A stretch of 37,168 nt of DNA from a virus, in IMG/VR virus record IMGVR_UViG_3300025122_000002, positions 1 to 37,168 of that record. The stretch is one strand, 5' to 3'. The notes below the pieces were generated by a model. The model did no database searches, was not told where the DNA came from, and saw nothing but the letters and a program-made list of their open reading frames with translations. Of the stretch, positions 6,456 to 27,775 are shown piece by piece (within the stretch, counting starts at the first letter, position 1; each line of letters begins with the position of its first letter). The position numbers and the translations under genes were made by a program.

Positions 6456-6608
6456 CCTCCTCTCTCAATCTCTTTACGTATATTACATCAATTTTTAAAA
6501 CCTCGCAACACCTTAAAACTCTTATTATGGAAAAGTAATTAAGAAGTAATTAACACACATATAATATAGCTCCACTTAAATAGTAAAAGTAACATTTCAC
6601 AACCCTTT

Positions 6609-6646
6609 GTTACTTTTGCTTATAGTAAAAGTAACGTAAAAGTAAC
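6609..6646. promoter_or_regulatory. Three-site operator/iteron unit A1
   Basis: One GTTACTTTT (6609-6617) faces two AAAAGTAAC copies (6627-6635 and 6638-6646). Start-to-start spacings are 18 and 11 bases. The same spacings occur in units A2, B1 and B2. A further single AAAAGTAAC lies at 6585-6593. It probably binds a protein as a dimer plus an extra subunit. Confidence 0.75.
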
Positions 6647-6876
6647 ATTTGAATTTTCTGTGTTTCGAGTGTAAATAATACAACATTTAGTATATACTTT
6701 ATAATTTGTTACTTGTTACCTCTAAAATATATTTATGTACCAAAAAACCACGTTTTTATACGCTCCATACTATATTTACGCTCGAATGGCCTATTTTACT
6801 ATATTCAGTAAAAATATTTTGGTGGGTAACGGGTAACATTTCTGGGGATAACTCTTTATTTTAGGTTCGTTTTACT

Positions 6877-6885
6877 TGTGGATAA
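6877..6885 (-). promoter_or_regulatory. DnaA box
   Basis: TTATCCACA on the minus strand is an exact match to the bacterial DnaA consensus. A weaker relative (TTATCCCCA) lies 34 bases away at 6843-6851. A single 9-mer could occur by chance, but its position beside iterons and a primase gene makes it meaningful. Confidence 0.6.
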
Positions 6886-6888
6886 CTT

Positions 6889-6926
6889 GTTACTTTTGCG
6901 TTACTTTTGCTCTTAGTAGAAGTAAC
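6889..6926. promoter_or_regulatory. Three-site operator/iteron unit A2
   Basis: Two tandem GTTACTTTT copies (6889-6897 and 6900-6908, 11 bases apart) face AGAAGTAAC (6918-6926, 18 bases on). It is the reverse arrangement of unit A1 and matches B1 base for base at most positions. Confidence 0.75.
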
Positions 6927-6935
6927 AATGTGTTT

Positions 6936-9900
6936 TTATGTGGCGACAATGACCCTTTGAGTGTACGTGCCTACTGTTGATCCTACCACACAAGCTACCC
7001 TGACGTAAAGAACTCCGGTAGCTGATATAGTTTCAGTAGGGGTTGTTGGCGTAGATACGTCTGTATATGTCACGTTATCCGTTGATTTTTGAACTTTATA
7101 ACTTGTGATATTATTTTCGGGGTTCCAAACGGCCACAACACTACCTGATAAAGGCACGTTAGACAACGTTAAACCGCTAATATTCGGGGGTATTGGATCA
7201 CCTGTAGGGGTTGTACTAGGTTTAGTAGGGGGTGTGCCTTGATCCGCCGTGTGTATACTGCCATCATAAGGAATACAAGTTATGTTTACAGTCTCATTAT
7301 CCCCACGAGGTTTAACACTGGTAACAAGGCAAGGTTTATTCCAGTTGGTCGAGGGTCCAAATTGATATATAGTAGGGTTCTGATTGTTTAGTGTGGTGAT
7401 AAAAGTAAAGTCTGTCACATCTGAACTTAATATAGCTTGCTTATCATTAGAACCTTGTGTGACAGTGTGTGGACCTGATAAACTCCCATTCGGCCGCATG
7501 AATGACATATAGAAGGGCGCTGAACCTGTCCAATCTAAAGGCTGTGAAGTGGTAATAGTTGTCCCTGATTTATTGGTGACTTGGCCACCTTGACCCCATG
7601 ACGGTAAGTCATAATGCACACTGATCAAATCCCCGTAAAAAGGTATATGGCCTGACATTTCAGTTGAAAAAGAAACTGATACACGCTGCTTTACAATCTG
7701 TGCAGCTAGATATTGCGATTCTCGCCATGCTTGCGCATAGTTGACGCAACCAAAAAAATTTATTTTCTGCGGGTTATTTAGGCCGGGGGTAGATTCAACA
7801 ATAGCTTGACTGTAATTGTTGTCCTCATCTAAATAAGTGATCTTTACCCCGTTAGGTGTTTGCGCATCGGGGAAACTATAATTGATGTTAAAACTACCAG
7901 GTAATATATTATCTGGTGTAAACATAGCGGTATAGACACTCTGTGCGCCATCCCTAACAAATGTTAACGTTGTACCATCGAAAATCGGCCGGCATCGCCC
8001 TGTACGTGCAACTTTAGTCAAAGCCTCCCAAACAGTAATATTGGAGTCAAAAACACCGTCAAACGTGTCACCTCTGGATGTCCAAAGGGTATCTAATGTT
8101 GAAAGTGTTGCAAGATCAATATTTGCTTGTGGCCTACTTGCACCATACGTTGACATCCATATATCCGCAAGCGCCCAGGCTATGGACCGGGTTGGTGTCA
8201 ATCCTGACCAAGCTGACCCTGTCCATGTTTTCAATTTTCGTGTAGCAATTACGTTTATTTTTTTTTGCGTGTTACTAGGTATGCCACCACTATCCCGTAT
8301 GACAACACCTAATATTGAATACGGTCCAAACTTTGATACACTAGTCAAGTTCGATAAAATAGAATGTACTTTAATGTCCATGACAGCGTTATACGTTGAG
8401 TAATCTGCGTAATCTGTCCTGTGTAATCTAGCCTCATATCTACCCGTTGTAGTTATTATATTAAACCCGATCAGATGTTGTGCATGTATAACATCTGATT
8501 TTGAATATCCTAATTCACTAAACGGCATGGTTATATAAGAACCGTCATAAGTGATAGGACCTGTTTTAGTTCCGGTAAAAGTTACCTTAGCCCCACCCCA
8601 CCCGTCCCCATAATCAATACTAGATATATCCCCACTAGGTATAGCTACCCCGTTATCATAAAAAGTAAAAGTTGCGTTTGGGTCCCACCTTCTATGCGTA
8701 GCTGTGGTAGGGTGCCAAGTTATATTATTCCCCGATTCACTAGTCATACCGTCACCAACTATTGGAGTTATTACCCCGGAATAACTCCCATCGTTTTCAA
8801 TAGGGCGTAATAATAATTTGTAGTTCATTCCCCCCTCAATCCGCACATCTGATCCTATTGTGGTCTTATATAAACCTTGTTTAACTTCTAAATTAACATG
8901 TACACTATGGACATCTGTATTCACGGGGTTCGTTATAAAGCTATCTGTAGCGTTAACTGCAAACTGTCTACTGGATAAGGTGGTGGGGTAATCTCTATCC
9001 GTATAGCCGGGATATATGTAAGCTATCTTGTTTTCTTTAGTCAAGGTTACAATACCTGCATTTACTTGATCCCCTGGCCAACCCGCAACATTTGTAAATA
9101 CCAATTCAGTATCGGTTAAAGTGTCTACAGTAAATACTCCATTAAAAGCGGGAAAAGATAACGATATTAAAAATATAGTATCCCCTTCGCTAAACGTTTC
9201 GGATAACCTATCCCCATTATATATACGCTTCCCTGCTTTATCAAAAGAGTAGTTGGGAAAATTATCCGTATTTGTATTTCGGGAGTTGGCGTTTATTATA
9301 GGTGTGGGAACATTACTTACGTTAGGTATCGTATATACATTATCGCCTGTAAACGGTATGGTAAACGTATCGTTAGGTCCACTTAGATATAAATCTACAT
9401 TATCCGCATTTAGTATAGAATTTTCGCCAAGCCTAACATCATGTATAGTAAATTCACCCCAACCAAGTGAAAATATTTGATATATCAGTCTAAGACTTTG
9501 AGGGCGATCCCCCGCAAAACCATACGGTGGATGCTTGATCCAAGGACTAGCCGCTAAATCCGGAAATACTTTAAATTTACCGTATTGCGTAGGTATTGGT
9601 TCCCCTAATCGAGATAAATTACTTTGAGGCCGCAACCGGTAGGCATTACCACGCTCTGGCGTTGAACTGGTTAAATCTTCGGGGTTATCTAATACCGGGG
9701 TACCAAATATAAACTCACCGACTTTAGATACAGCACTACCTACCGCTTCCTCGGCTGTCTGAAATAATCGAGTAATAAAATCCTGATCTTCGTCCCCACC
9801 TAGAAGAGGTTGTATACTTATATCAACAATGTCATTTTGGTTTAAAACAACATCATAATTTTCAACGGGGAGTTTTTTTCGATTTAATTTAATTACGGTA

Positions 9901-10031
9901 GGTAGATTAAATCCGTTAGGGTACTTTTGTTGTAGTAGATCAAGTAATGAATCCCCAACATTTAAAATAAAAGTATCTTTTTCGTATACACTAAAAGGGT
10001 TAGGGTATATATTAACTATTGGATTTTGCAT
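6936..10031 (-). CDS. J: Tail tip attachment protein, lambda J-like, with beta-grasp N-terminus
   Basis: 1031 residues, the largest gene. Residues 1-80 look like a ThiS/MoaD-type beta-grasp fold (VIKLNRKKLPVENYDVVL, then NDIVDISIQPLLGG), which is how lambda gpI begins. A hydrophobic linker leads into the J/TipJ body (RLGEPIPTQYGKFKVFP at about 141-157; DIWMSTYGA and WEALTKVARTGRCRPIFDG at about 623-686). Residues 449-503 form a small beta module also found in tail tube protein 2. Residues 945-1031 look like a fibronectin type III domain. J proteins close the tail tip and bind the host receptor. It follows the NlpC-like gene with a 16-base overlap, as in the lambda L-K-I-J order with I fused to J. 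Confidence 0.92.
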   Translation of the reverse strand: MQNPIVNIYPNPFSVYEKDTFILNVGDSLLDLLQQKYPNGFNLPTVIKLNRKKLPVENYDVVLNQNDIVDISIQPLLGGDEDQDFITRLFQTAEEAVGSAVSKVGEFIFGTPVLDNPEDLTSSTPERGNAYRLRPQSNLSRLGEPIPTQYGKFKVFPDLAASPWIKHPPYGFAGDRPQSLRLIYQIFSLGWGEFTIHDVRLGENSILNADNVDLYLSGPNDTFTIPFTGDNVYTIPNVSNVPTPIINANSRNTNTDNFPNYSFDKAGKRIYNGDRLSETFSEGDTIFLISLSFPAFNGVFTVDTLTDTELVFTNVAGWPGDQVNAGIVTLTKENKIAYIYPGYTDRDYPTTLSSRQFAVNATDSFITNPVNTDVHSVHVNLEVKQGLYKTTIGSDVRIEGGMNYKLLLRPIENDGSYSGVITPIVGDGMTSESGNNITWHPTTATHRRWDPNATFTFYDNGVAIPSGDISSIDYGDGWGGAKVTFTGTKTGPITYDGSYITMPFSELGYSKSDVIHAQHLIGFNIITTTGRYEARLHRTDYADYSTYNAVMDIKVHSILSNLTSVSKFGPYSILGVVIRDSGGIPSNTQKKINVIATRKLKTWTGSAWSGLTPTRSIAWALADIWMSTYGASRPQANIDLATLSTLDTLWTSRGDTFDGVFDSNITVWEALTKVARTGRCRPIFDGTTLTFVRDGAQSVYTAMFTPDNILPGSFNINYSFPDAQTPNGVKITYLDEDNNYSQAIVESTPGLNNPQKINFFGCVNYAQAWRESQYLAAQIVKQRVSVSFSTEMSGHIPFYGDLISVHYDLPSWGQGGQVTNKSGTTITTSQPLDWTGSAPFYMSFMRPNGSLSGPHTVTQGSNDKQAILSSDVTDFTFITTLNNQNPTIYQFGPSTNWNKPCLVTSVKPRGDNETVNITCIPYDGSIHTADQGTPPTKPSTTPTGDPIPPNISGLTLSNVPLSGSVVAVWNPENNITSYKVQKSTDNVTYTDVSTPTTPTETISATGVLYVRVACVVGSTVGTYTQRVIVAT

Positions 10032-10929: not shown

Positions 10930-12057
10930 TTAGTCTACCCAAATTTCACCAGTAGAGCTGTTATATTTTAGAGTCCCATTATCCGTCCCACTCGTAGCCA
11001 AACTCGGCATGAATACTTTGCCAGATGAATTTGCCGTTATTACAGTGGTCGTTCCTCCCCCATTTTGAACAAAAATATCTATTTTACCCACAGAGTTGGG
11101 ATATGTCCCAGCTGTCACAATTTGTCCTGCAATGCCTCCAATCAACCCCCCAGAACCATTGCTAATACTGTAGCTTCCTCTGTTCCCAACTGTATCTGGG
11201 ATGACTATATTGGCAATTGATGAGGATACACCTGTCTGTTCAGAACCCACGACTTGGAGAGGGAAATCTGGACTACTCGTCCCAACCCCCACGTTCCCGG
11301 TTGGGTCGATGGACATAGCATTAAGGTTAAAAGTTCCGTCCTGGTTTGAATCAACAACAAATGATAGGGTTCCGTTATCCGAGGTAATCTGGTGAACGGC
11401 GGGGGTCCCACCTGAAATATCAACAAAAGAAAGTGAGGGCTTGTAGCTGGAAATTAATAAGCCCCCTGAATTATCGTTTTCAGTTGAATTAATTTGCACG
11501 ATTGGAGAATAAGTTGAATTTATTACTGTCGATCCAATAGCCATTTTACCCGATGAATCCCACCTTAACCGCTCAACACCCCCTGTCACAATACCCAAGG
11601 TATCAGCAGACGGGAAGTATATACCAGTATTAGTATCCCCAGTATCTGTTATTGAGGGTGCTGAAGTGCTACCATCAGATACAGTTAATGTGGTTGCATC
11701 GACTGTTCCCGACACGTTTAAATCACCGTTTAAATCTAAATTCCCGGATAAGTTTATCTGGTACAACGCCCATTTATCTGCGGTTAAATCACTAGAGAAG
11801 GTCCCCGATGTGTGCGCCTCTAAACACACATACCAGTTCCCGGACTCCTCGACAATATCTTTAATTGCGTATGCTGTAGCTGTAGCCCATGACCCCCTTA
11901 GTGTGTTAACTGGTAATTCGGCAAGATAACCGCTTATGCTTTTAACGGTGTGTGAATCTAATGTAACAGTCTCATTATAAGCCCCATTGATAATGCTATC
12001 ATACCTAGATAAATTAGTAGTTAACTTATCAATTTGTGCTTGTGTAGGATTAGCCAT
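10930..12057 (-). CDS. Tail fibre-like protein with repeat-rich beta structure
   Basis: 375 residues. The N-terminal 60 residues probably anchor it to the tail. Then a short module (WATATAYAIKDIVEESGNWYVCLEAH) resembles the chitin/carbohydrate-binding type seen in fibres. Next come repeated LDLNGDLNVSGTVDATTLTV stretches and GIYFPSADTLGIVTGGVERL, a pattern common in fibres of marine and cyanobacterial phages. Gly, Ser, Thr and Asn dominate. No C-terminal intramolecular chaperone is evident. It overlaps the 65-residue gene by 8 bases and lies between the M-like and L-like genes, which are normally adjacent, so it looks inserted. Base composition seems less AT-biased than its neighbours. Confidence 0.8.
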   Translation of the reverse strand: MANPTQAQIDKLTTNLSRYDSIINGAYNETVTLDSHTVKSISGYLAELPVNTLRGSWATATAYAIKDIVEESGNWYVCLEAHTSGTFSSDLTADKWALYQINLSGNLDLNGDLNVSGTVDATTLTVSDGSTSAPSITDTGDTNTGIYFPSADTLGIVTGGVERLRWDSSGKMAIGSTVINSTYSPIVQINSTENDNSGGLLISSYKPSLSFVDISGGTPAVHQITSDNGTLSFVVDSNQDGTFNLNAMSIDPTGNVGVGTSSPDFPLQVVGSEQTGVSSSIANIVIPDTVGNRGSYSISNGSGGLIGGIAGQIVTAGTYPNSVGKIDIFVQNGGGTTTVITANSSGKVFMPSLATSGTDNGTLKYNSSTGEIWVD

Positions 12058-12247
12058 TTTTTTTATTATTTCCTTTTTTAACTACTGTTTTAGCTGTGGT
12101 AGGGTTAGTTAACATATTTAAAACAACATTTACTTCAGATATATTTTTTAGCCCTTGTGTTTTAAGTGTAAGATCACACATTGCGGTAATTATAGCTTTT
12201 TCTTTTTCGGATATTACGTATGTTTCGCTCTCTATTTTTTTATTCAT
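12050..12247 (-). CDS. Small protein of unknown function, 65 residues
   Basis: Begins MNKKIESETYVISEKEKAII with a GAGAGG ribosome site 7 bases upstream and ends in a lysine- and asparagine-rich tail (KKGNNKKNG). It is mostly helical by composition. It overlaps the fibre gene start by 8 bases, so the two are probably co-translated and may be functionally paired, for example as a fibre assembly or attachment helper. I do not recognise the family. Confidence 0.65.
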   Translation of the reverse strand: MNKKIESETYVISEKEKAIITAMCDLTLKTQGLKNISEVNVVLNMLTNPTTAKTVVKKGNNKKNG

Positions 12248-12277
12248 TTTAACCTCTCTTTTTTAAGTATCTAGCCC

Positions 12278-12778
12278 TTATACACTTGAAGGATATAATA
12301 TATTAACCTGATTGTCTAATATATCTATATATCGACTTGCTGTATCGAAACCTCTAACACCGCCAATAGTTGCAATAAAATCTTCCATAACAGCGTCATA
12401 ATCTACACCTAAATTAATCTCTACCGCCTCCAATCGCATATCAACACGCCATAACGTGCCATTTAATGTATACCTGGGGTTATCTAATAGCCTGCACTCG
12501 TGTTCACTAACTATAGAATCGCCTACCGGGATATTCATATTAAACCAATTTACACCGTAATTTAAAGTGTTAGCAATCCACGCCTGAAAAAATGAGAGTG
12601 AGGATTGATCTAACAGTATTTGAATGTTAAATATACTATTAATGCGTGTAAATCGTTTACGGATAACACTATAGCCACTATCCATAGTAGTACGTAGTAA
12701 CCTATTGTTTTCGCTGTGTGAAGTGTTAGCAACTAAAGGACTTGGTAAAATGTTATGTGGGTAATCTATAGTTGCCAT
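12278..12778 (-). CDS. Minor tail protein, lambda M-like
   Basis: 166 residues, directly after the tape measure gene (5-base gap). Position and content fit the lambda gpM/distal tail group: a beta-rich protein with RFTRINSIFNIQILLDQSSL, FFQAWIANTLNYGVNWFNM and RNPRYTL-type elements, ending with WRVDMRLEAVEI. Such proteins form the first ring of the tail tip. Sequence similarity to lambda gpM itself is too weak to call by eye, so the name rests mainly on order and overall pattern. Confidence 0.7.
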   Translation of the reverse strand: MATIDYPHNILPSPLVANTSHSENNRLLRTTMDSGYSVIRKRFTRINSIFNIQILLDQSSLSFFQAWIANTLNYGVNWFNMNIPVGDSIVSEHECRLLDNPRYTLNGTLWRVDMRLEAVEINLGVDYDAVMEDFIATIGGVRGFDTASRYIDILDNQVNILYPSSV

Positions 12779-12783
12779 ACTTT

Positions 12784-14847
12784 CTAAAAACCTCCATGCG
12801 CTCTATTTAGTGCGAAAACGTTAGATAATGTTTTGCTTGTTTCAGATGTACCCCTTACTATCCCTTCGGACATTTTAGCGTCTATTTGCTCCATGAGTAT
12901 ATCAATCTTTAGTCCACCTCGTCCATCATTGGATTGCTGTATGTTTGCTGTAGTTCCTTCAATTGGGAATACATTAACCGTAACCCCACCTGAATTACTA
13001 GAACCAGGTTTAGTTATTCCAAAATCCCCAGCCGGCGTAATACTACCTCGTGAATTCCCAGTTGCAAGAAAATCATTGCCCCCAAAGTTAAACATTTCGG
13101 GGCCGTTTTCGTTAACCTTATACACCTGATTAGGGAAAACGTCACCACCTACGGCTCTAGGTGTAAAACTTTGAGAGGCTATAGCATTGGCCTGAACCGC
13201 CATAGCAGCAGCCGCTACCCCCGCAAAAACACCACCTAAAATTGGTCCGCCGATTGAACTACCAAAAGCAAAAGAACTAGCTACGGCTTGTGGTGTTTTA
13301 ACTGCAATGTCAAAAAGTGCTATTGCCTTGGCTAATTCTGCGAATTCTTTACTTGACTGCCCTGCTAGTTGGATATTTTGCTTGAAACTTGCCCCGTTTT
13401 GCCTAAGTTCCTCTTCGCTATCTTGTTTTCGTAATGTTTTCATTGCATCATTATAAGCCTTTGTTATCCCTAATTTCTCAAAAAGATGCTTCTTATATGC
13501 AACTTTCTCATTCTCATTAGTAGCTTGAAGTGCTGTTAATCTTTTCGCTTCCGCTTCGGCCTCTATTTCTGCCAAATTGTCATAAAACGACTTGACAACA
13601 TCTAAATTTGAGATATCGAAATTACTAAGAAAATTTTGAATAAAACTATCCGCTTGACCTCCCTCCCCTGTCTGTTCTTTCATGCTCTGTAAGGTTTCTG
13701 TGTATGTACTTCCTAATTTTGATATCTCATTTCTAGCACTTGTTAAATCCAAGTTACCTAAATGAACAATTGTATTCAATAAAACTTGTGTGGCTGCGGA
13801 CGCTGCATTTAGTTTGTCCCAAAAAACAACAACTGCCGTTGTAAGTGCCACAAAAGGGTTAATCCGGGTTATCGCCAATAGTAAACCATTCGTAACGGTT
13901 AAAAGTCCGTTTACGGCGATTAGAGAACCTTGCAATAAAACAAAAGTGCCTACCATTTTAATTATTTTATTGTTTTCACCTGTCACATCTTTTAATGTTG
14001 TGAAAAGTGCCTCTGTATAAATAGGTAGTTTTTGTAGTTTCTCACCAGCTTTAAAAAAAGCAGTCCCCAATGTTTGAGTTAAACTTACCGATTCGTCTAA
14101 ACCGGCCAAACCTTGCTGTAAACCTAACTGAAACCTCGCAAAGCCTCTTGACATTCGGATAGGTATTTTTTCGGCCTTCTCTGTTATCTCGTCCGCCCTG
14201 TCAACTAATGCCCTGAAAACATCTTCCGATACCAGCTTACCTTCTTTTTTCAGTTTAATTAACTCTTGGACGGTAATCCCCATCCCGGCGGCTATTTCAC
14301 CCGCTATTGCTGGGACGTTTTCTAGCACGCTTTGAAATTCTTGCGCTTGAAAAACACCGGATATTAAACCTTGCGAAAACTGCAACATAGCCGCATTTAA
14401 TAGTTGCGGTGCCGTCCCCGACAACAAGCCTAACTCAGCGAATGATTGTGTTAACCTGATCATTTCTTCATTAGTACCCTTAACGGTTTCTTTAGCGAAA
14501 AGTAATTTTTGGAATCCACCCGCCGTTAGTTCTAGTGCAGCCCCTGTTTTACTTGATATATTTTCAAGTTGAGTAAAGATACTTACTGCCTTATCGACAT
14601 CACCAACAACGGCAGTAACTCTATCTCGCAATAGTCCGTAATTATCAGCCATTAGCGCACTGCGGCGTAATGCTTCAACTGATATTAAAGCACCTAATGT
14701 AGTTTTTAGTTTATTAGCAACATTATTGACACTTTCAAATGATTTATCTGTACTGTTTGTAAAAGAACGTACCCTGCTATCAGCTTTATTTAAACCTGAC
14801 GTGTCTACCCCTAGTTGATAAAATATCTGTCCTAAATTCAATGCCAT
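12784..14847 (-). CDS. Tape measure protein
   Basis: 687 residues. The N-terminal 240 carry the tape measure domain seen in many siphophages (VVGDVDKAVSIFTQLENIS, LTQSFAELGLLSGTAPQLL, QAQEFQSVLENVPAIAGEIA). A hydrophobic stretch (about 295-345) and a second Gly/Ala-rich one (about 535-565, GGPILGGVFAGVAAAAMAVQ) follow, typical of the parts that enter the host membrane. The middle is charged and coiled-coil-like. By the usual rule of about 0.15 nm per residue it would set a tail of roughly 100 nm, a modest siphovirus tail. It starts one base after the stop of the GT frame, the classic order. Confidence 0.95.
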   Translation of the reverse strand: MALNLGQIFYQLGVDTSGLNKADSRVRSFTNSTDKSFESVNNVANKLKTTLGALISVEALRRSALMADNYGLLRDRVTAVVGDVDKAVSIFTQLENISSKTGAALELTAGGFQKLLFAKETVKGTNEEMIRLTQSFAELGLLSGTAPQLLNAAMLQFSQGLISGVFQAQEFQSVLENVPAIAGEIAAGMGITVQELIKLKKEGKLVSEDVFRALVDRADEITEKAEKIPIRMSRGFARFQLGLQQGLAGLDESVSLTQTLGTAFFKAGEKLQKLPIYTEALFTTLKDVTGENNKIIKMVGTFVLLQGSLIAVNGLLTVTNGLLLAITRINPFVALTTAVVVFWDKLNAASAATQVLLNTIVHLGNLDLTSARNEISKLGSTYTETLQSMKEQTGEGGQADSFIQNFLSNFDISNLDVVKSFYDNLAEIEAEAEAKRLTALQATNENEKVAYKKHLFEKLGITKAYNDAMKTLRKQDSEEELRQNGASFKQNIQLAGQSSKEFAELAKAIALFDIAVKTPQAVASSFAFGSSIGGPILGGVFAGVAAAAMAVQANAIASQSFTPRAVGGDVFPNQVYKVNENGPEMFNFGGNDFLATGNSRGSITPAGDFGITKPGSSNSGGVTVNVFPIEGTTANIQQSNDGRGGLKIDILMEQIDAKMSEGIVRGTSETSKTLSNVFALNRAHGGF

Positions 14848-15428: not shown

Positions 15429-15454
15429 CTCTATATCTCCTCTCTAACTAATTT

Positions 15455-16078: not shown

Positions 16079-16080
16079 TT

Positions 16081-16491: not shown

Positions 16492-16502
16492 AAAACTGCC
16501 TC

Positions 16503-16522
16503 CTGTATATTAATATATACAG
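16503..16522 (-). promoter_or_regulatory. Inverted repeat upstream of tail tube gene
   Basis: CTGTATAT and ATATACAG flank a 4-base loop, next to the GGAGG ribosome site of tail tube protein 1. A second AT-only hairpin (AAATAC/GTATTT around 16543-16556) follows the stop codon of the upstream 120-residue gene. They could be an mRNA-stabilising hairpin, an operator or a weak terminator. Confidence 0.35.
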
Positions 16523-16557
16523 AATATATCACACTAAGTAAAAATACAAGTATTTTT

Positions 16558-17391: not shown

Positions 17392-17392
17392 G

Positions 17393-18430: not shown

Positions 18431-18435
18431 TTATA

Positions 18436-18729: not shown

Positions 18730-18732
18730 CAA

Positions 18733-19680
18733 TTATGCTCCTGTTGCGTGGACAACACCACATTTACCCGCACTATCAGATTTAACACGGACTGCCATAG
18801 CTGCCATGACTGTGAAGTCATGTTGCATTGCGGATGTTTGTGGTTCTTCAAAATTCACGATATCTTGAGCTACCGCTAAATCAACAACATCTTCCGACAT
18901 CTGTACTAATACAAGTTCACCATCTGCTAACTTATCGCCTGGTCTAACTGCTGTAATGTCCGACATACTCTCAAAAATCTTTTTAAAAGTTATATCCGAA
19001 GTTCCAGAACGTGTTTTTTGAATAAATCCCCAATTGTCTTTAGACACGTATAGATTGAAGGGACCAAAGAAATTATCGGCGTACGCTTTTGCTAACATAT
19101 CAAGAACATCCTGCTCAGGATCAGCACTCCCAGTCCCCCATGCATGCGCAATTGAATGTGTATTACGGTTAGGATGTGTAGTATATCCGTATACTTGCGT
19201 ATTGTCTAACACTAAACCAGTTACACCATTGGGAACCATGTTTTCTAATTTATCCGCAACAAGTCGAGTTGCTGTAACAATTTGTGTCGAGGGTAAATTA
19301 CCGCCAGGCTTACGTCTTGAAGCGATAATTTGTCGCTCATTCAGGGTAAACCCTTTATGAAAAATCGGGATAGGTACCCCAGCTTCAGTGAATACTAACC
19401 TGTCTTTTTGCGCTCCGGTAGCCGCATCCATGTCAACGTTTGCCTCTTCCATATCGCTTAGTTTTTCATACTTAGATACGATATCGCCCAAATCAAAATC
19501 AAAATTCGCCAAACCATTATCAATCAAATCTTGAACGAACGTTAATCGTGTTCTAGCAACATCGACCATTTTAGTATCCCACTTAATATAATCTTCATGG
19601 GACAAAGTACCGTTAGTTCGCATTGCGTTAACGTCTAATTGCCCTTCGGCGTTGTAAATTAAACCTTTTGGTATATCCAT
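18733..19680 (-). CDS. Major capsid protein, HK97-fold, encapsulin/linocin-like group
   Basis: 315 residues. It begins with a helical N-arm (DYIKWDTKMVDVARTRLTFV) and has RLVFTEAGVPIPIFHKGFTL, an E-loop-type stretch, and a long helix plus LDMLAKAYADNFFGPFNLYV typical of A-domain parts in the DUF6260/linocin-like capsid group. Position after decoration and protease/scaffold genes confirms it. No separate delta domain is obvious beyond the N-arm, in keeping with a separate scaffold. The ribosome site AAGGAG precedes the ATG. Confidence 0.88.
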   Translation of the reverse strand: MDIPKGLIYNAEGQLDVNAMRTNGTLSHEDYIKWDTKMVDVARTRLTFVQDLIDNGLANFDFDLGDIVSKYEKLSDMEEANVDMDAATGAQKDRLVFTEAGVPIPIFHKGFTLNERQIIASRRKPGGNLPSTQIVTATRLVADKLENMVPNGVTGLVLDNTQVYGYTTHPNRNTHSIAHAWGTGSADPEQDVLDMLAKAYADNFFGPFNLYVSKDNWGFIQKTRSGTSDITFKKIFESMSDITAVRPGDKLADGELVLVQMSEDVVDLAVAQDIVNFEEPQTSAMQHDFTVMAAMAVRVKSDSAGKCGVVHATGA

Positions 19681-19692
19681 TGTTTACTCTCC

Positions 19693-20118
19693 TTATATTA
19701 ATTCAATTCGGATTCTAGCTTTAGAACCACCGCCACTATTGTCTACTGCCTCTAATGCTGTAGCTACTGTAATACCGGATGCCCCTTTTTTGACGCCGCC
19801 TGCGCCATCAAATTCCAGTACATCCCCGATAACAATAGCTGCGGCGCTTGCCGCTACAAATGCGTATACCTCATCCCCGGATTTAAGGTATGTTGCTCTT
19901 ACATTATCACCTGTTGCATAATCATCAGTAATAGTACCTGCAACCAAGTCATTTTCTACTGCAATTAACTTGGGACCATTAATAGACGCTGTATCTTGTC
20001 TCTGAAAATCCCCATCAGTAGCACGTTCAAGAAAATCACCGGGTGTGATTGCTCCATTTGCTGGTGCTTCTTTTAAGTGTAGTGTTCCGACACTGTTTAA
20101 TACTATTGTGTTTGGCAT
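19693..20118 (-). CDS. Capsid decoration/cement protein (DUF2190-like)
   Basis: 141 residues, small, Ala/Gly-rich and beta-rich: GAITPGDFLERATDGDFQRQ, then GDNVRATYLKSGDEVYAFVA and SAAAIVIGDVLEFDGAGGVK, ending in SKARIRIELI. This is the pattern of DUF2190 or related capsid-stabilising proteins that are encoded just before the capsid gene. The ribosome site AGGAGAATAAAAC precedes the ATG. Confidence 0.78.
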   Translation of the reverse strand: MPNTIVLNSVGTLHLKEAPANGAITPGDFLERATDGDFQRQDTASINGPKLIAVENDLVAGTITDDYATGDNVRATYLKSGDEVYAFVAASAAAIVIGDVLEFDGAGGVKKGASGITVATALEAVDNSGGGSKARIRIELI

Positions 20119-20121
20119 GTT

Positions 20122-20586
20122 TTATTCTCCTTTACTAAAAATAGAAGGTGTTTTGTATGCTACTTGGCTATTAACATTACTTGCACATCTTCCGCTATAA
20201 TCCGGTTTTTTCAAACTCTTAGCTAGTTTTTCAATCTGATTAAAATGCATAGCTTCAAGTTCTTCTTTCGTAAATTCACTGTTCTTCACGATATCTGAAA
20301 TAAGGTTTGTTTTTTCGGTGTTGTGCTTACTAACGGCATTGCCTAAAAACTCTTTTACTTCTGAATCCTCAACACCTTCAAGTAAACTGTTTACCTTTTG
20401 ATCGGTAGTTTCTTCTTGTGCTGGCTCCTGTTCTGGCTCCTGTTCAAGTGTTGCGGTCGCATTAACTACAGGGTGCATTTTTTCAAGTACGTGTACTTCT
20501 AACGCTTCAAGACTCTCTTTGTCTTCAATCGTAAAAGATGTACTTTTGTTATCAATGATACTCTGTACCAATTCGGACTTATCCAT
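20122..20586 (-). CDS. Nested in-frame scaffold protein (internal start)
   Basis: The ATG at 20586 is codon 305 of the protease gene and is preceded by AAAGGAG with 8 bases of spacing, an ideal ribosome site inside coding sequence. The product would have 154 residues, acidic and helical, with the same C-terminus as the protease. Lambda (C and Nu3) and related phages use exactly this arrangement. Expression is inference; the site itself is visible. Confidence 0.65.
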   Translation of the reverse strand: MDKSELVQSIIDNKSTSFTIEDKESLEALEVHVLEKMHPVVNATATLEQEPEQEPAQEETTDQKVNSLLEGVEDSEVKEFLGNAVSKHNTEKTNLISDIVKNSEFTKEELEAMHFNQIEKLAKSLKKPDYSGRCASNVNSQVAYKTPSIFSKGE

Positions 20587-21498
20587 ACTTTCATCTCCTT
20601 TTATGTTAGCTTCATTACTCTTAATGATAGGTGTGTATGTGGTTTTTCGGACTACCTCTTGTGTGTCATCTCCCAATACTGCCTTACCATCTTGAATAAT
20701 ATAGCTTTGTTTATATAGGGTATTACCCTTATCGTAAATAACCTCAGTGTCAAAAATGTCTATTATAAACAGATAATCTATACCTTTTGACATCTCATGT
20801 AATGCGTTTACAACCTTTGATTGTATCTCAGTATAAGAGTCTTTATTAACACTTAAACCTAATTTATCACCCACCAATCGTAATGCCTTATTGAACTTAT
20901 CTATTATTGTTTTCGGCTCTTCACATTCACAATTATTTTTCATAGCCCCACACCCATCCTTTATACTACAAGCTCCTATTTCATCCGGTAACAAGGCCAA
21001 ATGATCGGGGCGTATATGTCTAACTATACCATCATAAGGTACACCATTAAAAGTGCCTTTTTTATCTTCAATATTTGAAAAAAGTCCCGTTGATACTTCC
21101 ACGATTTCGCCTTTTTCAAACTTCTCTACAATATCCATATGTTTTAACTTTTCAACTTTATCTAAATTCAACCAGATTTCACCTTTTAATTTATTGTCTT
21201 GGGTGAACTCAACATTATAAAACCAGCCTATATTATTCTGCTCGTGTATACGTGGGCTTTTAGCAGATACGTGCAAACCATTAACTTGGGGATGTCTTAC
21301 GGGAACTGGTACCCCATTCCAAGTACTCACCCAATCTTTAAACTCTTCGGCCGGATAAAAAAGGCCATTCATGACCATCTCTTTCGCTGCAATAACCGGT
21401 ACTACAAGGTGTTCAACATCGTCAAATGTCTCACGTTTAATTTTAACCTCTGTGTCAACATTAGATACTATAAAAGATTGTGATAATATATTACTCAT
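20122..21498 (-). CDS. DUF2213 prohead protease fused to scaffold domain
   Basis: 458 residues. Residues 1-200 are a DUF2213 protease domain: PVPVRHPQVNG with probable catalytic His69 and EIVEVSTGLF with probable Ser136. Then come a C-rich linker (CSIKDGCGAMKNNCECEEP, 177-195) and a charged, coiled-coil scaffold-type C-terminus (305-458) with an EQEPEQEPAQEE patch. Proteases of this type mature the capsid and remove the scaffold. An internal start with a strong ribosome site at codon 305 would release the scaffold part alone. Confidence 0.85.
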   Translation of the reverse strand: MSNILSQSFIVSNVDTEVKIKRETFDDVEHLVVPVIAAKEMVMNGLFYPAEEFKDWVSTWNGVPVPVRHPQVNGLHVSAKSPRIHEQNNIGWFYNVEFTQDNKLKGEIWLNLDKVEKLKHMDIVEKFEKGEIVEVSTGLFSNIEDKKGTFNGVPYDGIVRHIRPDHLALLPDEIGACSIKDGCGAMKNNCECEEPKTIIDKFNKALRLVGDKLGLSVNKDSYTEIQSKVVNALHEMSKGIDYLFIIDIFDTEVIYDKGNTLYKQSYIIQDGKAVLGDDTQEVVRKTTYTPIIKSNEANIKGDESMDKSELVQSIIDNKSTSFTIEDKESLEALEVHVLEKMHPVVNATATLEQEPEQEPAQEETTDQKVNSLLEGVEDSEVKEFLGNAVSKHNTEKTNLISDIVKNSEFTKEELEAMHFNQIEKLAKSLKKPDYSGRCASNVNSQVAYKTPSIFSKGE

Positions 21499-21522
21499 AT
21501 TTGTATCTTAACACACTTGATA

Positions 21523-22386
21523 TTACTTTCCAATAACTTTAACCCCTTCTGGTAATTGGCTTTCAGGTATAGCGGGTGTAGAACATCTACAATTTGGCTC
21601 ACCTATAAGTTGTGATACTTTTTCATAAGTATAAAATTTATTGTTTCGGTTTATATGTGAATCCCTTACTTTTATATCTTCGGCTGTGATCCACTCATAA
21701 TATACGTTTTCACCTAGTAATTCACCTAGTGCTTGCCCTTCGTTAATCATCCCTAGATTGTGTGTGTTTATGATTTCAGTGCGTGCGAGTAATCTTGATC
21801 GTGTCTTACCTATCACATCTATTCTTTCATTTAGTGTCTTAGCTATTTTATTGGGATTCTGCCCTTTAAGCAACCCTTCGGATAAATAAAAAGATAACTG
21901 CTGACTGACCACATCCGTGATGCCTTTCAACTGTGCAAAATTTCTTGTAAATAATAGTGAGGTTTTCGCTATATGATAAGGTATACTAAAAACGTCTACT
22001 CGGTTAGGTATCTGATTACGGCCATATATTCCCGCAAAGTTGTTATTTGTTTTTTTAACCCCTCTCGCATAGGATTCGTTAAAATAATGTAACATCCAAT
22101 TTAATTGTGCGCTGTTCGGCGTTGTTGTACCACCTAGGATAATTTCATTCATAACAGAAGTTAACCAAACGTCAAACGCTTCTAATTTATCCGGGGATCT
22201 TAAAAAAACAAAATCATTTTGATCTAATGCTCGTGCATTACTGAAAATCTTGTTTGTTACTATACTTTCAGTGACTAACCTTTGAACTTTAGTGTATTTC
22301 CTGTTTATTTCCCCGACCACCCGATTTCGTAATGTTATTGTTCTAGTCGGGTCTGTTTTAAGTAGATTTTTACTCCGCTTCGCCAT
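21523..22386 (-). CDS. Mu F-like (SPP1 gp7-like) head morphogenesis protein
   Basis: 287 residues. The C-terminal half carries the Mu F signature: RSRLLARTEIINTHNLGMI, YYEWITAEDIKVRDSHINRN and the closing EPNCRCSTP motif. The N-terminal half is helical. These minor head proteins sit next to the portal and may pass into the host or guide assembly. It overlaps the portal gene by 17 bases and precedes the protease gene, the usual order. Confidence 0.9.
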   Translation of the reverse strand: MAKRSKNLLKTDPTRTITLRNRVVGEINRKYTKVQRLVTESIVTNKIFSNARALDQNDFVFLRSPDKLEAFDVWLTSVMNEIILGGTTTPNSAQLNWMLHYFNESYARGVKKTNNNFAGIYGRNQIPNRVDVFSIPYHIAKTSLLFTRNFAQLKGITDVVSQQLSFYLSEGLLKGQNPNKIAKTLNERIDVIGKTRSRLLARTEIINTHNLGMINEGQALGELLGENVYYEWITAEDIKVRDSHINRNNKFYTYEKVSQLIGEPNCRCSTPAIPESQLPEGVKVIGK

Positions 22387-23806
22387 CTTCTAGTTCGTCA
22401 CTATCATCATTATCCGGTAAGTCATCGGGTCTATATTCTAAACCTAACACATCTTCAAAAAGCTGTTTGGGCGGCATAACCATATCCGCCCCATTAGCAT
22501 TTAGATAATTGTTAAGTGCCTGCATTTTTTTAACCGCAACTTCGGCCTTATCCATATCGGATACACTTTTAAGGTCAGGCCATGTAATTTTATACCTACC
22601 ATTTTTAGGTGCAACTAAAACCCCATTTAATATAAACCAATCTATCAAGGGGCGTAATATTTGAAGTTCACAAAAATCTTTTTGGCGTTCCCTTACTCTA
22701 GCTATCCAGTTGTTTTCGTCTTGGCTTGATGCTAATTGACCCTGCTCCGAACCTGTCAATATCCTCTTGGGTATCCCTGTGGACGCTGATATTAAAGAGA
22801 TGATCACATCAAAATGATTTTTAGGGTCCGCAATGTTAAAATTAAGGACGTTCACGTCTACACCAGCAGTTTTTAAATATCGCGTTAAATTATGACTAAA
22901 ATCTTGCATATTCTCTTCTAATGCTTTCTTATCATCTGGCTGCAAGATACTATCGCCAGGCATAGAAAAATGCATACCCCCTCTAGCATTTAAATAAAAT
23001 GTTTCGGCGCTTCCCCCCACAATTTTTTCTAAGTCAATCAACCTGTTAATAACCGGTTCAAGTCTTGGCGTTCCCACAATATCATTGTCTAACACCCCTT
23101 CCGCAACGTGTATAATACGAGTATAATGTACCTCTAGCGGCGCACGTTTTAAAACCGTCCCCGTTTCATTTTTATCGTATCCATTAGTACCTAATTTATA
23201 CATGACGGGTAGTCCGTACCTTCGGCTTTGGGGGTCCTCATCATATTTAGATATAGTTATGTCACTTTCGGCATAAGGCGCAAAAAATAAAATATCATCT
23301 ATGTTAATTTTAGTGTCTAACGGCAATTGCGCTTTTTTACCGTCTCTAACACCAATAAATAGGACGGCAAAGCAACCTAATGACATAACTTTGTCAAGCC
23401 TGCGTATGTAATGATATATTTTTAATTGAGGATGTTCTATAATCTCTTTCAGTGCCTTGTCAAATATAGTATCCCCTTGCATGTCATCATTATCCGTAAT
23501 TATAGGCTCAGAACTCCAGCACGCATCGGGATAAGCGGATACTATTCGTTTAGCGATATCCTGGCGAGCGAAACGTTCCCTGTAATCTTCTTGTGTGATC
23601 ACACCACTATAGCCAAAAACATCATATAGATTACGTTTACCGTTGTGTGTAGATTGTACAAGTGCGGCAAACGCTCTGCGTGATGTTATCGCCATATTCA
23701 CACTGACCCCCGTTGTTTTTTGTCTTTTCGCCATATCACCATTTAATTTTTTCTGGCTTTTAAGTAGATTTAATTCACTTTTTTGCCTGTAGTCCTTACT
23801 GTTCAT
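22370..23806 (-). CDS. Portal protein, DUF1073 family
   Basis: 478 residues with DUF1073 (phage_portal_3) features: an early FGYSGVITQEDYRERFARQD and IVSAYPDACWSSEP, then RLDKVMSLGCFAVLFIGVRD, an EVHYTRIIHVAEGVLDND segment and ASTGIPKRILTGSEQGQLAS. The portal forms the dodecameric DNA gate at one capsid vertex. It follows the large terminase gene. The related name Acb1-like is sometimes attached to this family in databases, but here the position and length indicate the portal. Confidence 0.9.
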   Translation of the reverse strand: MNSKDYRQKSELNLLKSQKKLNGDMAKRQKTTGVSVNMAITSRRAFAALVQSTHNGKRNLYDVFGYSGVITQEDYRERFARQDIAKRIVSAYPDACWSSEPIITDNDDMQGDTIFDKALKEIIEHPQLKIYHYIRRLDKVMSLGCFAVLFIGVRDGKKAQLPLDTKINIDDILFFAPYAESDITISKYDEDPQSRRYGLPVMYKLGTNGYDKNETGTVLKRAPLEVHYTRIIHVAEGVLDNDIVGTPRLEPVINRLIDLEKIVGGSAETFYLNARGGMHFSMPGDSILQPDDKKALEENMQDFSHNLTRYLKTAGVDVNVLNFNIADPKNHFDVIISLISASTGIPKRILTGSEQGQLASSQDENNWIARVRERQKDFCELQILRPLIDWFILNGVLVAPKNGRYKITWPDLKSVSDMDKAEVAVKKMQALNNYLNANGADMVMPPKQLFEDVLGLEYRPDDLPDNDDSDELEDGEAE

Positions 23807-23865
23807 TTATGCCTCACAATATGGTATATATAACACTATACCACCTACTTTTTAAATTTACTATC

Positions 23866-25335
23866 TCAAAATGTACCTACCCGGACCCCTTTCGTCATTA
23901 ACCCTATTTCAACCCCATCCATGAACATATCCACCTGATCATCATATTTGTGTGTGCCCATGGGTGTGAACTTGCGTATTTCGTCTTTAAAATCAGATAG
24001 CCAAGGGGCGTTATTGGGTAGGTGAACAAACCCCGATGTAAGATAGGGTACTGTATCGTGCGCTCGTGCTACTTTACAACGGTTGCGCTGTATATCTTTA
24101 ATTGGCATACCTTCACGTTTTAATGATTGAATTAAATCCGTTCCGCTTGCTTTATCTTCGATATGTACCCATCTTAATCTTCCTATTGGTGCTGTAGCAT
24201 GTTTATGTTTATTATACATGTCTACTAACGCACGCCTAAGTTCTGGTGCTTCCCATTTACTCTTAACCACATCTATAATATATAAATTGTTTTTGTATAC
24301 CCCAAAACAACCAAAAACTGATCTATCATTATGTTCTGCTTTTTTCTGTGCAGTGTCGCCCGTAATAAACCTATATTCAAATTGTGGGGGTACTTGTTCG
24401 TTATAGTATGACCACCATTCATCTTTAAAAATACCGCCCCCCAACGGTGACGGCCTCTGGTCGTATTGGCTTGACGTTGTGTATGGGTCCGCTTTACGCA
24501 TCGTATTCAGAATAGGTAAAGTATGTTTATACGGCCATAATGGTCCCACTTCTAAATTGTGTTTAATTGGTATACCGTATTTATATGCGCTTGGGTATAC
24601 ATAATCTTTCTCTATTTCAGCGGGTAAAACCAGATGATGCCATTTTTCACCTGTGCCACCTTCGACCAAAAACCCTGTGCAATCTTCCTCATGCAACCGT
24701 TGCATAATTAATATTATAGGTACTTTCTCGTGCGCTAACCTTGATTTTAACGTGTTCATAATACGATTATTGACTCTATTTCTTTTCGCATCGCTGTAAG
24801 CATCGTCTGGTTTTAAGGGATCATCGATAACTATAGCACCACTAAAACCATCTACCATACGCCCCGCCCTAAATCCCGTGATAGTACCTCCCGATGCAAC
24901 GGCCAAAACACCCCCGCCCTGCTCAGTATACCAACTTTTTTTAGATTGATTGTCTTTGCGTAATTGTAAAGGCCACAATTCCTGATACTCATGACTAAGC
25001 ACAATATCACGTATCGTTAACGAGTTTTGTAGTGCCAGGCTATCGGCATACGAAGTGTGTATAAACTTAGAGTCTGGATTGTACGCTAAACCCCTCGCAA
25101 TAAAAGACAATACCGCCATCTCTGTCTTAGTGTAACCAGGTGGAACGTTAATTATTAACCTAGTTATTTCACCTCTAAAAACACGATCCATAGTATCCGC
25201 CATGACTTGATGGTGCGGATTAACTATGAACTGTGCGTTTTCTCGATGCTTAAAAAAATATCGGGTAAAGACAATATGCTTATCGATACACAACTGTTTT
25301 AATATGCTTTTATTTGTATCGCAATCAATTAACAT
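23866..25335 (-). CDS. terL: Terminase large subunit
   Basis: 489 residues. The ATPase domain has a Walker A of the VPPGYTKTE kind (about 64-72), a Walker B GAIVIDDPLKPDD and the usual FIHTSYADSLALQNS stretch. The nuclease domain shows RFITGDTAQKKAEHNDRS, then VHIEDKASGTDLIQSL and KYDDQVDMFMDG with acidic metal ligands. The enzyme cuts and pumps DNA into the capsid. Its start shares one base with the stop of the small subunit gene (TAATG), so the two are coupled. Confidence 0.95.
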   Translation of the reverse strand: MLIDCDTNKSILKQLCIDKHIVFTRYFFKHRENAQFIVNPHHQVMADTMDRVFRGEITRLIINVPPGYTKTEMAVLSFIARGLAYNPDSKFIHTSYADSLALQNSLTIRDIVLSHEYQELWPLQLRKDNQSKKSWYTEQGGGVLAVASGGTITGFRAGRMVDGFSGAIVIDDPLKPDDAYSDAKRNRVNNRIMNTLKSRLAHEKVPIILIMQRLHEEDCTGFLVEGGTGEKWHHLVLPAEIEKDYVYPSAYKYGIPIKHNLEVGPLWPYKHTLPILNTMRKADPYTTSSQYDQRPSPLGGGIFKDEWWSYYNEQVPPQFEYRFITGDTAQKKAEHNDRSVFGCFGVYKNNLYIIDVVKSKWEAPELRRALVDMYNKHKHATAPIGRLRWVHIEDKASGTDLIQSLKREGMPIKDIQRNRCKVARAHDTVPYLTSGFVHLPNNAPWLSDFKDEIRKFTPMGTHKYDDQVDMFMDGVEIGLMTKGVRVGTF

Positions 25336-25835
25336 TAATATTCAGAGTTAAACATCTTCTCAAATTTAAGTAGATCATCCTCGGCAAGATTGATACTTGG
25401 TATCTGGCTCTGATTGTTTTGAAATGAATCGCCCGATAACATATTCTTATGCTTAAAAAGCATTTCAAGAACCTTAGTTGCACCCTTCGAATCTAATGTG
25501 TATTCGCCTGTCGGATGACCTTTTTTATCCAATACGGGCATAGGTGACATACACTTATCTAGTAAATTTAACGCACGTAAGGATATATCTTCTCTTGTGA
25601 TAAAGACTTTTCGCATCTGCCTTTTCCTTAATGTTAAATACTCTTGGACTATAGGTTTAGTATATATCAAATTACCCCTATGGCCGGGATTTAGCTCGTC
25701 AAAATCAATCTTCGCCATCGCTAATGGTATAGACATGCACTTTAAATACTCCTCACAAAATCGGTATTCCGTTTCTGTGAGTTTTTTTGCTAACCCCTCA
25801 ATTTTTTTATTTTCGTTCTCTTCGTTTAAGTTCAT
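25335..25835 (-). CDS. terS: Terminase small subunit
   Basis: 166 residues. A helical DNA-binding N-terminus (LTETEYRFCEEYLKCMSIPL) is followed by a region with KPIVQEYLTLRKRQMRKVFI and a helix that probably makes the ring (ISLRALNLLDKCMS). The pattern resembles Terminase_2-like small subunits. It directly precedes the large subunit. The small subunit recognises the packaging site, which is often inside or near its own gene; no cos or pac site can be identified here. Confidence 0.82.
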   Translation of the reverse strand: MNLNEENENKKIEGLAKKLTETEYRFCEEYLKCMSIPLAMAKIDFDELNPGHRGNLIYTKPIVQEYLTLRKRQMRKVFITREDISLRALNLLDKCMSPMPVLDKKGHPTGEYTLDSKGATKVLEMLFKHKNMLSGDSFQNNQSQIPSINLAEDDLLKFEKMFNSEY

Positions 25836-26088: not shown

Positions 26089-26475
26089 TTATCTTTTAAT
26101 TTTTTCAACACTACGGCCACCAAAATAAGCACCTGTGACAACGGTTAAAACTAACTGTAACATATCAACCCATGCAGGTTTAACGTTAAATTTAATTGAA
26201 CCTGAATCAATGAAAATCAGTAAAACAGTTGCTACATAAATAAATATTACAACCATTGGCCGGATGTTTTTTGAAAGCCAGGAATCCGACTTCATGTCCG
26301 ACTGCCATCTATCAGTTACATTTTTTTGAGTTTTTGCATCATGATCTAAAATCAACTCTTTAATTTTTCGCTCCGCCTCTAACTTTTCTTCGGATGTCGT
26401 AGTTAAGGAATCTAACACCCCACCTACACTCTTAACTAAATCGCTTGCGCCTGATCCTAGAAATTTTGATAACAT
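26089..26475 (-). CDS. Holin-like protein from internal start
   Basis: The in-frame ATG at 26475 (codon 144) is preceded by AAAGGAGAG and 7 A, a strong ribosome site. The 128-residue product has two or three hydrophobic helices (about 208-222 and 242-260 of the full protein) and a charged tail, matching the 3TM/GTA holin pattern. It is likely expressed as a separate holin for host lysis. Confidence 0.6.
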   Translation of the reverse strand: MLSKFLGSGASDLVKSVGGVLDSLTTTSEEKLEAERKIKELILDHDAKTQKNVTDRWQSDMKSDSWLSKNIRPMVVIFIYVATVLLIFIDSGSIKFNVKPAWVDMLQLVLTVVTGAYFGGRSVEKIKR

Positions 26476-26904
26476 TTTTTTCTCTCCTTTTTTTGTTACT
26501 TGTAATGTAAGCGGCTCATTGTGCTTAAGCGCCTCAATCAACCTACTATACAATTTATAGTAGGTTGGCCGTGACACACCTAAACACCCTTTTTCCTCAT
26601 CTCTCGTTTTTGCAGGGGCTATACACCCTTTAAGTTCATTGGGGCTATTGGCTGGATGTAACAATATATATTCTCGCCCCTTAACCTGTATTTCAATCAT
26701 ACCCTTAAACTGGTCTTTGTACCCTAGTTTTTCTTTTTCCATGTTGTACCATCCGCCGGATGTCCTAAATCCCAATTTAAAGTTGTCGCATGGTATCAAA
26801 GTAGACGCATTTTCGAGCGTTTCGCACTGGTGAACATTATCAATATAAAGTTTGCCAAATTGTGAGTTACTGATAATGTTGTCTCTAACTAATTCGATTT
26901 TCAT
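26089..26904 (-). CDS. DUF5675 protein fused to a holin-like domain
   Basis: 271 residues in two parts. Residues 1-138 match the DUF5675 pattern (LGFRTSGGWYNMEKEKLGYK, YILLHPANSPNELKGCIAPA, CLGVSRPTY), a phage family often found in lysis regions. Residues 144-271 resemble GTA-type holins: RWQSDMKSDSWLSKNIRPM, then hydrophobic segments VVIFIYVATVLLIFI and MLQLVLTVVTGAYFGG. The junction has a ribosome site and ATG in frame at 26475, so the holin can be made alone. Separate genes in an ancestor may have merged here by an indel in the A tracts; that is inference. It is the first gene of the structural module. Confidence 0.78.
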   Translation of the reverse strand: MKIELVRDNIISNSQFGKLYIDNVHQCETLENASTLIPCDNFKLGFRTSGGWYNMEKEKLGYKDQFKGMIEIQVKGREYILLHPANSPNELKGCIAPAKTRDEEKGCLGVSRPTYYKLYSRLIEALKHNEPLTLQVTKKGEKKMLSKFLGSGASDLVKSVGGVLDSLTTTSEEKLEAERKIKELILDHDAKTQKNVTDRWQSDMKSDSWLSKNIRPMVVIFIYVATVLLIFIDSGSIKFNVKPAWVDMLQLVLTVVTGAYFGGRSVEKIKR

Positions 26905-27053
26905 TATTTTAAACCTTACCTACACTATATCACAATCTTGTTTTTTAAGTCTACCTAAATTTCCAGTAAATTAAATCCCGTTGACAGTATGTTTAAAATA
27001 CTTTAAAGTATGTGTTCGGCTAGTTGTACCAACTACAATTAAAACATAATGAT

Positions 27054-27091
27054 GTTACTTTCGTGTTACTTTTGCTCGGAGTAAAAGTAAC
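27054..27091. promoter_or_regulatory. Three-site operator/iteron unit B1
   Basis: GTTACTTTC (27054-27062) and GTTACTTTT (27065-27073), 11 bases apart, face AAAAGTAAC (27083-27091), 18 bases on. Same order as A2, with one changed base in the first site. Confidence 0.72.
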
Positions 27092-27329
27092 ATTTTAATT
27101 TACACTCAAAATCAAACCTTTTTACACTCAAAAAATAAACGTAAATTACACCTTCCAGTTTTGATCCATTTTGGTGTCCCCCTCTCCCCCACTGTTCAAT
27201 ACGGAAGTAACTTTTAGATCAAAAATAGCAAGGGGTAGGGGGCTTTCAGTTTTTATATTGTGGAGTAGTATATATACGGTAGTTATAGTATATAATATGA
27301 GGCTCCACTTAAATAGAGAATTTAAAAAT

Positions 27330-27367
27330 GTTACTTTTAGTCTTAGTAAAAGTAACGCAAAAGTAAC
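27330..27367. promoter_or_regulatory. Three-site operator/iteron unit B2
   Basis: GTTACTTTT (27330-27338) faces AAAAGTAAC at 27348-27356 and 27359-27367. Same geometry and orientation as A1, and embedded in the block shared with 6561-6712 (CTCCACTTAAATAG before, GAGTGTAAATA and AATTTGTTAC after). Confidence 0.75.
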
Positions 27368-27775
27368 ATTTCTTGAACTTGCTATTTTGAGTGTAAATAG
27401 TACATTAATATGACACTTATTTTACAATTTGTTACCGTTACTTCTTCTAAAAAACACGTTTTTTTAGGGCTTTTGCGTGTTTTGCTCCATAAGTAACATT
27501 TTCTCACGCTCGCCACATCCCCTTAAAAACACCTCAAAAAAGCCTATTTCACGTCAAAAACCGACCAAAAACCCCAAAAAAGCCTATTTTGCACCAAAAA
27601 ACACCCTTAAAAACCACAATGTTACTTTTAATGTAACACACAATATATACCGTAATCACGGTCAATTTTCTACACTAAAAAGTTTAAAAATCAAAATGTT
27701 ACTTTTGCTAAAAGTACCTTAAAAAACGTGTTTTTTCGTCAATTTTCAAATATAACAGTAAATTTGGGTATATCG

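Follow-up and report, generated by a model that had tools for sequence, protein, structure and literature searches.

Which protein reads the three-site units that stand before the two main operons of this phage, and what would its binding do there? The window, which is the whole stretch of 37,168 nucleotides analysed here, is a complete circular phage genome with a 127-bp end overlap, and its main genes are located on the - strand. The units lie in two intergenic regions, A and B, which bracket the early/replication block (Table 1). Downstream of region A are the genes coding for the primase, a helicase, Pam3 gp32/33/34-like proteins, a second helicase, and a PolA polymerase. The density of GTTAC cores is 22.9/kb in region A, 14.9/kb in region B, and 2.0/kb in the rest of the window.

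Table 1. Regions, units, associated signals, and candidate reader genes in the window.
Feature	Position	Strand	Remarks
Region A	6456..6935	-	Intergenic; between the end of a tail gene (6936-10031) and the primase gene start
Region B	26905..27775	-	Intergenic; upstream of the holin/TerS/TerL/structural operon
Unit 1	6609..6646	-	Sites 6609+/6627-/6638-; T orientation on - strand; GTTAC-11-GTTAC-22-GTAAC
Unit 2	6889..6926	+	Sites 6889+/6900+/6918-; T on + strand; third site with 1 mismatch
Unit 3	27054..27091	+	Sites 27054+/27065+/27083-; T on + strand; first site with 1 mismatch
Unit 4	27330..27367	-	Sites 27330+/27348-/27359-; T on - strand
Isolated exact 9-mer	6585..6593	-	Adjoins unit 1
Isolated exact 9-mer	27621..27629	+	Region B; retained in L006 and L172
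Isolated exact 9-mer	27698..27706	+	Region B; retained in L006 and L172
DnaA-box-like sequences (two)	6843-6851, 6877-6885	-	TTATCCCCA and TTATCCACA, respectively; adjoin unit 2
CTATTTAAGTGGAGC	6569..6583	-	Region A; just downstream of T unit; promoter-like position
CTATTTAAGTGGAGC	27302..27316	-	Region B copy; just downstream of T unit
Archaeo-eukaryotic primase	4860..6455	-	AEP core; first gene after region A; preferred candidate binder
Primase C-terminal part (residues 315-531)	4863..5513	-	Confident prediction; winged-helix-like end
SNF2-like SF2 helicase	3106-4857	-	Conserved with the arrays; other candidate
Pam3 gp32-, gp33-, gp34-like proteins	2772-3089, 2191-2712, 1423-2175	-	Conserved with the arrays; other candidates
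Terminase small subunit-like protein	25335..25835	-	Candidate if the arrays serve packaging

A preliminary description of this DNA had reported four groups of a 9-mer, each with two tandem sites 11 bases apart and a third site facing them 18 bases away, one pair of groups preceding the primase operon and the other the structural operon. Every group was found at its exact position, regions A and B are placed as described, and the geometry was constant: in 4/4 units there are 11 bp between the starts of the two tandem 9-mers and 18 bp between the start of the facing site and that of the closer tandem site, with the GTTAC and GTAAC core starts separated by 22 bp. The T unit reads GTTACTTTTRC-GTTACTTTTRC-TNNNA-GYAAAAGTAAC. 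The exact 9-mer is present at 10 of the 12 sites, the others differing by one mismatch (6918, GTTACTTCT; 27054, GTTACTTTC), and a further exact copy outside the units lies at 2662. Followed in the direction of transcription (- strand), the order is T'...T in region A and T...T' in region B. Tandem and inverted copies of one short word in non-coding DNA are the arrangement of iteron-type origins.

The 9-mer with at most one mismatch was matched 57 times in the window, compared with 24.4 +/- 5.0 times in shuffles. Because the motif had been picked after looking, the search was rerun free of any chosen 9-mer, accepting any word in such an arrangement with at most one mismatch per site. Units were detected at the four known places only, while 40 first-order Markov randomisations gave a mean of 0.25 units and never two sharing one geometry; the arrangement is thus not equally frequent in randomised sequence. 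A generalised spaced pattern likewise occurred 4 times, all within regions A and B, where 0.05 were expected.

All four units were kept in a close relative, IMGVR_UViG_3300030332_001196, and both units of region B were kept in a third relative, L172. Between the window and the close relative, 1/108 bases within the 9-mers had changed, compared with 5/44 in the unit spacers (p=0.008) and 109/1199 in the rest of regions A and B (p=0.0009). The close relative has, in addition, one more complete three-site unit, its fifth, located between the genes for the helicase and the gp32-like protein (L004 4731-4768), where the window has 16 bp, suggesting that units can be copied. These arrays are real, conserved, and informative.

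Phages with the same replication gene order were located via the primase, and eight named phages (SH-Ab 15497, Bhz20, 53, Kokobel2, PSA28, VLCpiS6a, PMBT28, and Barton) were compared with the window; their primases were 36-40% identical to that of the window in full-length alignments. In line with the earlier proposal that the unit be sought in such relatives, equivalent arrays were present: word clusters occurred in 8/8 phages, in the intergenic region before the primase (A) and at the early/late junction (B). The full word was lineage-specific (AAAAGTAAC, AGCAACCG, AGTAACCG, TGGAACCG, TGGAACGG). SH-Ab 15497 carries AGCAACCG, Bhz20 AGTAACCG, phage 53 AG(A/T)AACCG, and Kokobel2 TGGAACCG; PSA28, VLCpiS6a, and PMBT28 carry TGGAACGG, and Barton has GGGGTAAC with AGCAAACG/AGCGAACG. 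A GNAAC core was common to most words and absent from one Barton word. The lineage differences occurred in A and B together, and the two regions shared 22-52 10-mers, where the shuffle maxima were 2-4, or 17 in the AT-rich window.

The spacing was also conserved. The pattern GTTNC-11/12-GTTNC-22/24-GNAAC was found in six genomes and was confined to A and B in five of them (the window, Kokobel2, PSA28, VLCpiS6a, and PMBT28), with 0.02-0.05 expected per genome; in the sixth, the close relative, it was found in A, B, the extra unit, and once within coding sequence. In SH-Ab 15497, Bhz20, 53, PSA28, VLCpiS6a, and PMBT28, regions A and B each contained one GNAAC triple with 8-bp spacing; in Kokobel2 this triple was present in region B only, and Barton had neither pattern. 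Relative to A, the B array is reversed in the Acinetobacter phages and in several IMG/VR contigs, and runs in the same direction in Kokobel2, PSA28, VLCpiS6a, and PMBT28, where B is located some genes upstream of the late operon. An antipodal arrangement of A and B was considered and rejected, the arcs being 45-50% in the window and the eight named phages and ~36-40% in ~55 kb IMG/VR contigs; the constant feature of placement across relatives is the position of A and B on either side of the early block. A nucleotide search of region B against the named phages gave just three short matches, in methyltransferase-like sequence.

Since A and B carry the same private word, which differs by lineage, a reader that acts in trans on both is required, and the action of one sequence-specific protein at the two places is strongly supported by this comparison. 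The words differ between close relatives that share a host genus, so the reader is most simply phage-encoded. The preliminary description had likewise proposed one DNA-binding protein, either a regulator coupling replication and late expression or a replication initiator. The single protein stands; between the two roles the initiator is favoured, and sequence alone is not decisive. We therefore tentatively regard the units as iteron-like arrays bound by a single replication protein of the phage, the preferred candidate for which is the primase, an account that we put a little short of an even chance. One protein would read short GNAAC-core words about one turn apart and in opposition, at A and at B. 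Its binding at A, beside the primase gene, would probably open or prime the phage origin, and its binding to the second array at B may serve a second initiation site or tie late transcription to replication.

The initiator is favoured because replication proteins make up nearly everything that the window has in common with the named phages. The shared set comprises the primase, the SF2 and SF1 helicases, the gp32/33/34-like proteins, PolA, a VRR-NUC-like protein, a short zinc-ribbon-like stretch, and TerS; some tail genes are shared as well, with the Acinetobacter phages. It is favoured also because the primase gene adjoins region A in every relative and codes for a predicted winged-helix C-terminus. 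The DnaA-box-like pair in region A counts for a role in replication as well; both copies are TTATCCACA in the close relative, and a same-strand pair within 60 bp arose in 1/200 randomisations. Several results count against such a role. GC and AT skew at fourfold sites revealed no strand-composition switch at A or B, no DnaA boxes were found in region A of the more distant named relatives checked, and the array centre in G+C-rich relatives is a G+C-rich hairpin with no AT-rich opening region. Moreover, ct3Et533 has the replication proteins and no such array, the identical word and spacing also occur in phages without this primase, and the fold match of the primase C-terminus is weak.

The preliminary description had held that no gene for the binding protein could be named; a short list of predicted candidates with a preferred member can now be given (Table 1). 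The most likely binder would be the archaeo-eukaryotic primase, acting through its modelled C-terminal winged helix. This protein has an AEP catalytic domain (Pfam AEP-TOTE match, 3.4e-15). PriCT-1 was matched above the cut-off in SH-Ab 15497 and weakly, below the cut-off, in the window primase (residues 218-280). The nearest solved folds are CAPP (CRISPR-associated Prim-Pol) and then, more weakly, RSF1010 RepB' and S-2L PrimPol. The C-terminal part (mean pLDDT 83) is predicted to have a helix-helix-strand-strand-helix-helix-strand-strand order, which is winged-helix-like, and its top fold match is the SaPIBov1 replication initiator, with a probability of 0.95 and a weak E value (E=0.05), so this match is a lead only. 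Winged helices of such primases, which share this domain order with primases of other mobile elements, have been discussed as possible origin-recognition domains, and the PriCT-1/HTH part of ColE2 Rep has been discussed as DNA-unwinding (PMC5862659). The arrays point to two short regions and a short protein list that are directly testable, and the related phages with different words (AGCAACCG, AGTAACCG, AG(A/T)AACCG) offer a ready-made series in which to identify the reader and the residues that set its specificity. A comparison of the SH-Ab 15497, Bhz20, 53, and Barton proteins gave too many differences to single out the binder.

A serious rival, which we nevertheless consider doubtful, is that a single transcription regulator of the phage uses the arrays as operators, controlling the early operon from A and the late one from B. 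The two regions do precede the two operons, visual inspection of several relatives showed sigma-70-like promoters in the DNA that separates the arrays from the genes downstream, and in both regions of the window the T unit is followed by the promoter-like CTATTTAAGTGGAGC. However, the genes shared with relatives include no regulator-like gene, and promoter matches in the window were not above chance. The direction of B relative to A varies by group, which is odd for sites that engage RNA polymerase and is a mild argument against a strict promoter-operator reading; the distance of B from the late operon in Kokobel2 and the three phages sharing TGGAACGG points the same way. Binding by the terminase is less likely. 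The B array, with A derived by duplication, would then be a pac packaging start read by the terminase small subunit, which we judge improbable. P1 pac is likewise built of short words in two clusters, and phage pac and cosB arrays resemble the present ones as short-word clusters near terminase genes. B is close to or at TerS/TerL: in SH-Ab 15497 and Barton it immediately precedes TerS, and in contigs G004 and G002, which were checked in detail, it is 0.8-0.9 kb before TerL; TerS is also common to the window and the named phages, where the other packaging and head proteins have no detectable homology. Against this, a second full array at the primase is unexpected for a pac site, as the PrimPol phages carry two arrays per genome instead of a single one at the terminase genes, and no TerS is conserved across all array-bearing phages, a search of the fetched array-bearing 55-kb contigs having detected no TerS homologue.

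That the units act as single-strand hairpins, like the RSF1010 ssiA/ssiB priming sites used by RepB' primase, seems very unlikely. Three of the 4 units fold with 9-11-bp arms (z -2.7 to -3.4), the units stand in opposed pairs like the hairpin-capable sites of RSF1010 oriV, and RepB' is among the primase fold matches. However, unit 2 folds weakly (z -1.4), no RepC-type iteron protein was identified here, and the relatives keep the words and spacing without the long palindromes, so the conserved feature looks like double-strand sites. There is an equally slight chance that the reader is a host DNA-binding protein, which would account for TGGAAC at 8-bp spacing in unrelated phages. In an IMG/VR scan with TGGAACNNTGGAACNNTGGAAC, at least 120 stretches carried the 8-bp triple, compared with about two expected by estimate, and nearly all were without this replication module, the full module being present in just one among the matches listed. 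However, closely related Acinetobacter phages of one host genus differ in the word in A and B together, which a phage-encoded reader explains more easily.

The preferred reading, a phage-encoded replication protein, also has to accommodate this wider distribution. Among IMG/VR contigs carrying the replication module, TGKAACNNTGKAAC was matched in 15/16, with control counts of 1 in all 16 records. It was located at two places in 11 contigs, with ~19-22 kb between them (in two contigs, 36 kb along the other arc), and at a single place in four more, three of which are fragments. Stretches with the 8-bp triple TGGAACNNTGGAACNNTGGAAC and no replication module include L180, L182, L187, L191, L205, L235, L237, L244, and others. 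Several unrelated phages of 35-39 kb contain a single ~300-bp dyad array, with 8-bp triples face to face and 12-bp pairs outside, between a ~630-residue primase-like gene (phrog_21086/35358) and a small gene in the position of TerS before TerL. This placement favours the packaging reading, and the absence of a Pfam TerS match in these small genes speaks against it. No significant sequence homology was found between the primase C-terminal domains of the present group and those of the unrelated array-bearing phages. The presence of arrays in phages with unrelated primases indicates that the array grammar is wider than this replication module, which a common reader, exchange, or convergence may explain. 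In a fuller model, which is rather unlikely to hold as a whole, one protein would recognise a word with a GNAAC core at each end of the replication block, by way of constant spacings of 8, 11/12, and 22/24 bp. The word and the protein would co-evolve, giving each lineage a private code, and phages with unrelated primases would have adopted the grammar. It would then be a module for initiation or control that phages can exchange, and a genome might have two origins.

Similar arrangements are known in several replication systems. The iteron origins of P1 (oriR), lambda (ori), and SaPI likewise have short direct or inverted words beside a replication gene, which in the window are about one turn apart, and the DnaA-box-like pair of the window and its close relative is a possible further likeness. 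Unlike them, two arrays rather than one bracket the early block here, tandem words in relatives are spaced by 8 bp, there is no proven AT-rich opening element, and the origin role is putative. The ColE2-type and PrimPol-PV1 initiator primases (PMC5862659) share with the window the AEP primase, a putative PriCT-1 domain (matched weakly in the window), the predicted C-terminal winged helix, and an adjacent array. They differ in that the phage has separate helicase genes and its own PolA, its arrays lie upstream of the gene and are duplicated, and its binding is putative. No described origin or replication regulator was found in the literature searched for this phage group, which includes isolates with 2-aminoadenine genes. 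That literature, which omits most subscription journals, yielded no description of these arrays, and the Loki and Septimatrevirus literature contained nothing relevant to them.

Other signals in regions A and B were also considered. As a T7-type promoter, CTATTTAAGTGGAGC was rejected, having two copies only and no conserved following sequence; the early genes scanned included none recognisable as a single-subunit RNA polymerase gene. The units were rejected as terminators, since their terminator-like matches are on the + strand and the main genes on the - strand. Rfam gave no match. In the named relatives, a TGTCGCC-N-GACA-like palindrome was observed upstream of the tandem words (L085, L086, L088, and L089, regions A and B), and in many of them a G+C-rich hairpin of the CCCCGTCCGACGGGG type lies mid-array (L085, L086, L088, and L089). 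Region B of the window contains an imperfect 40-bp tandem repeat (27520-27619), upstream of unit 4 in the transcription direction.

Several features of the surrounding genome are worth recording. The head, packaging, and most tail genes (10930-25335) have no detectable homology to genes of the named relatives, while TerS and the last tail genes do, indicating a mosaic junction. The PolA polymerase (34569-36443) is close kin of the PolAs of 2-aminoadenine (PurZ) phages, but none of the window's genes was recognised as a homologue of PurZ or DatZ. A C-5 cytosine DNA methyltransferase gene (28205-28933) is located close to the end of the early block. In addition, gene 32356-33387, whose C-terminus is DUF3310, contains an imperfect 24-bp repeat (8 codons) in ~23 copies at 32725-33278.
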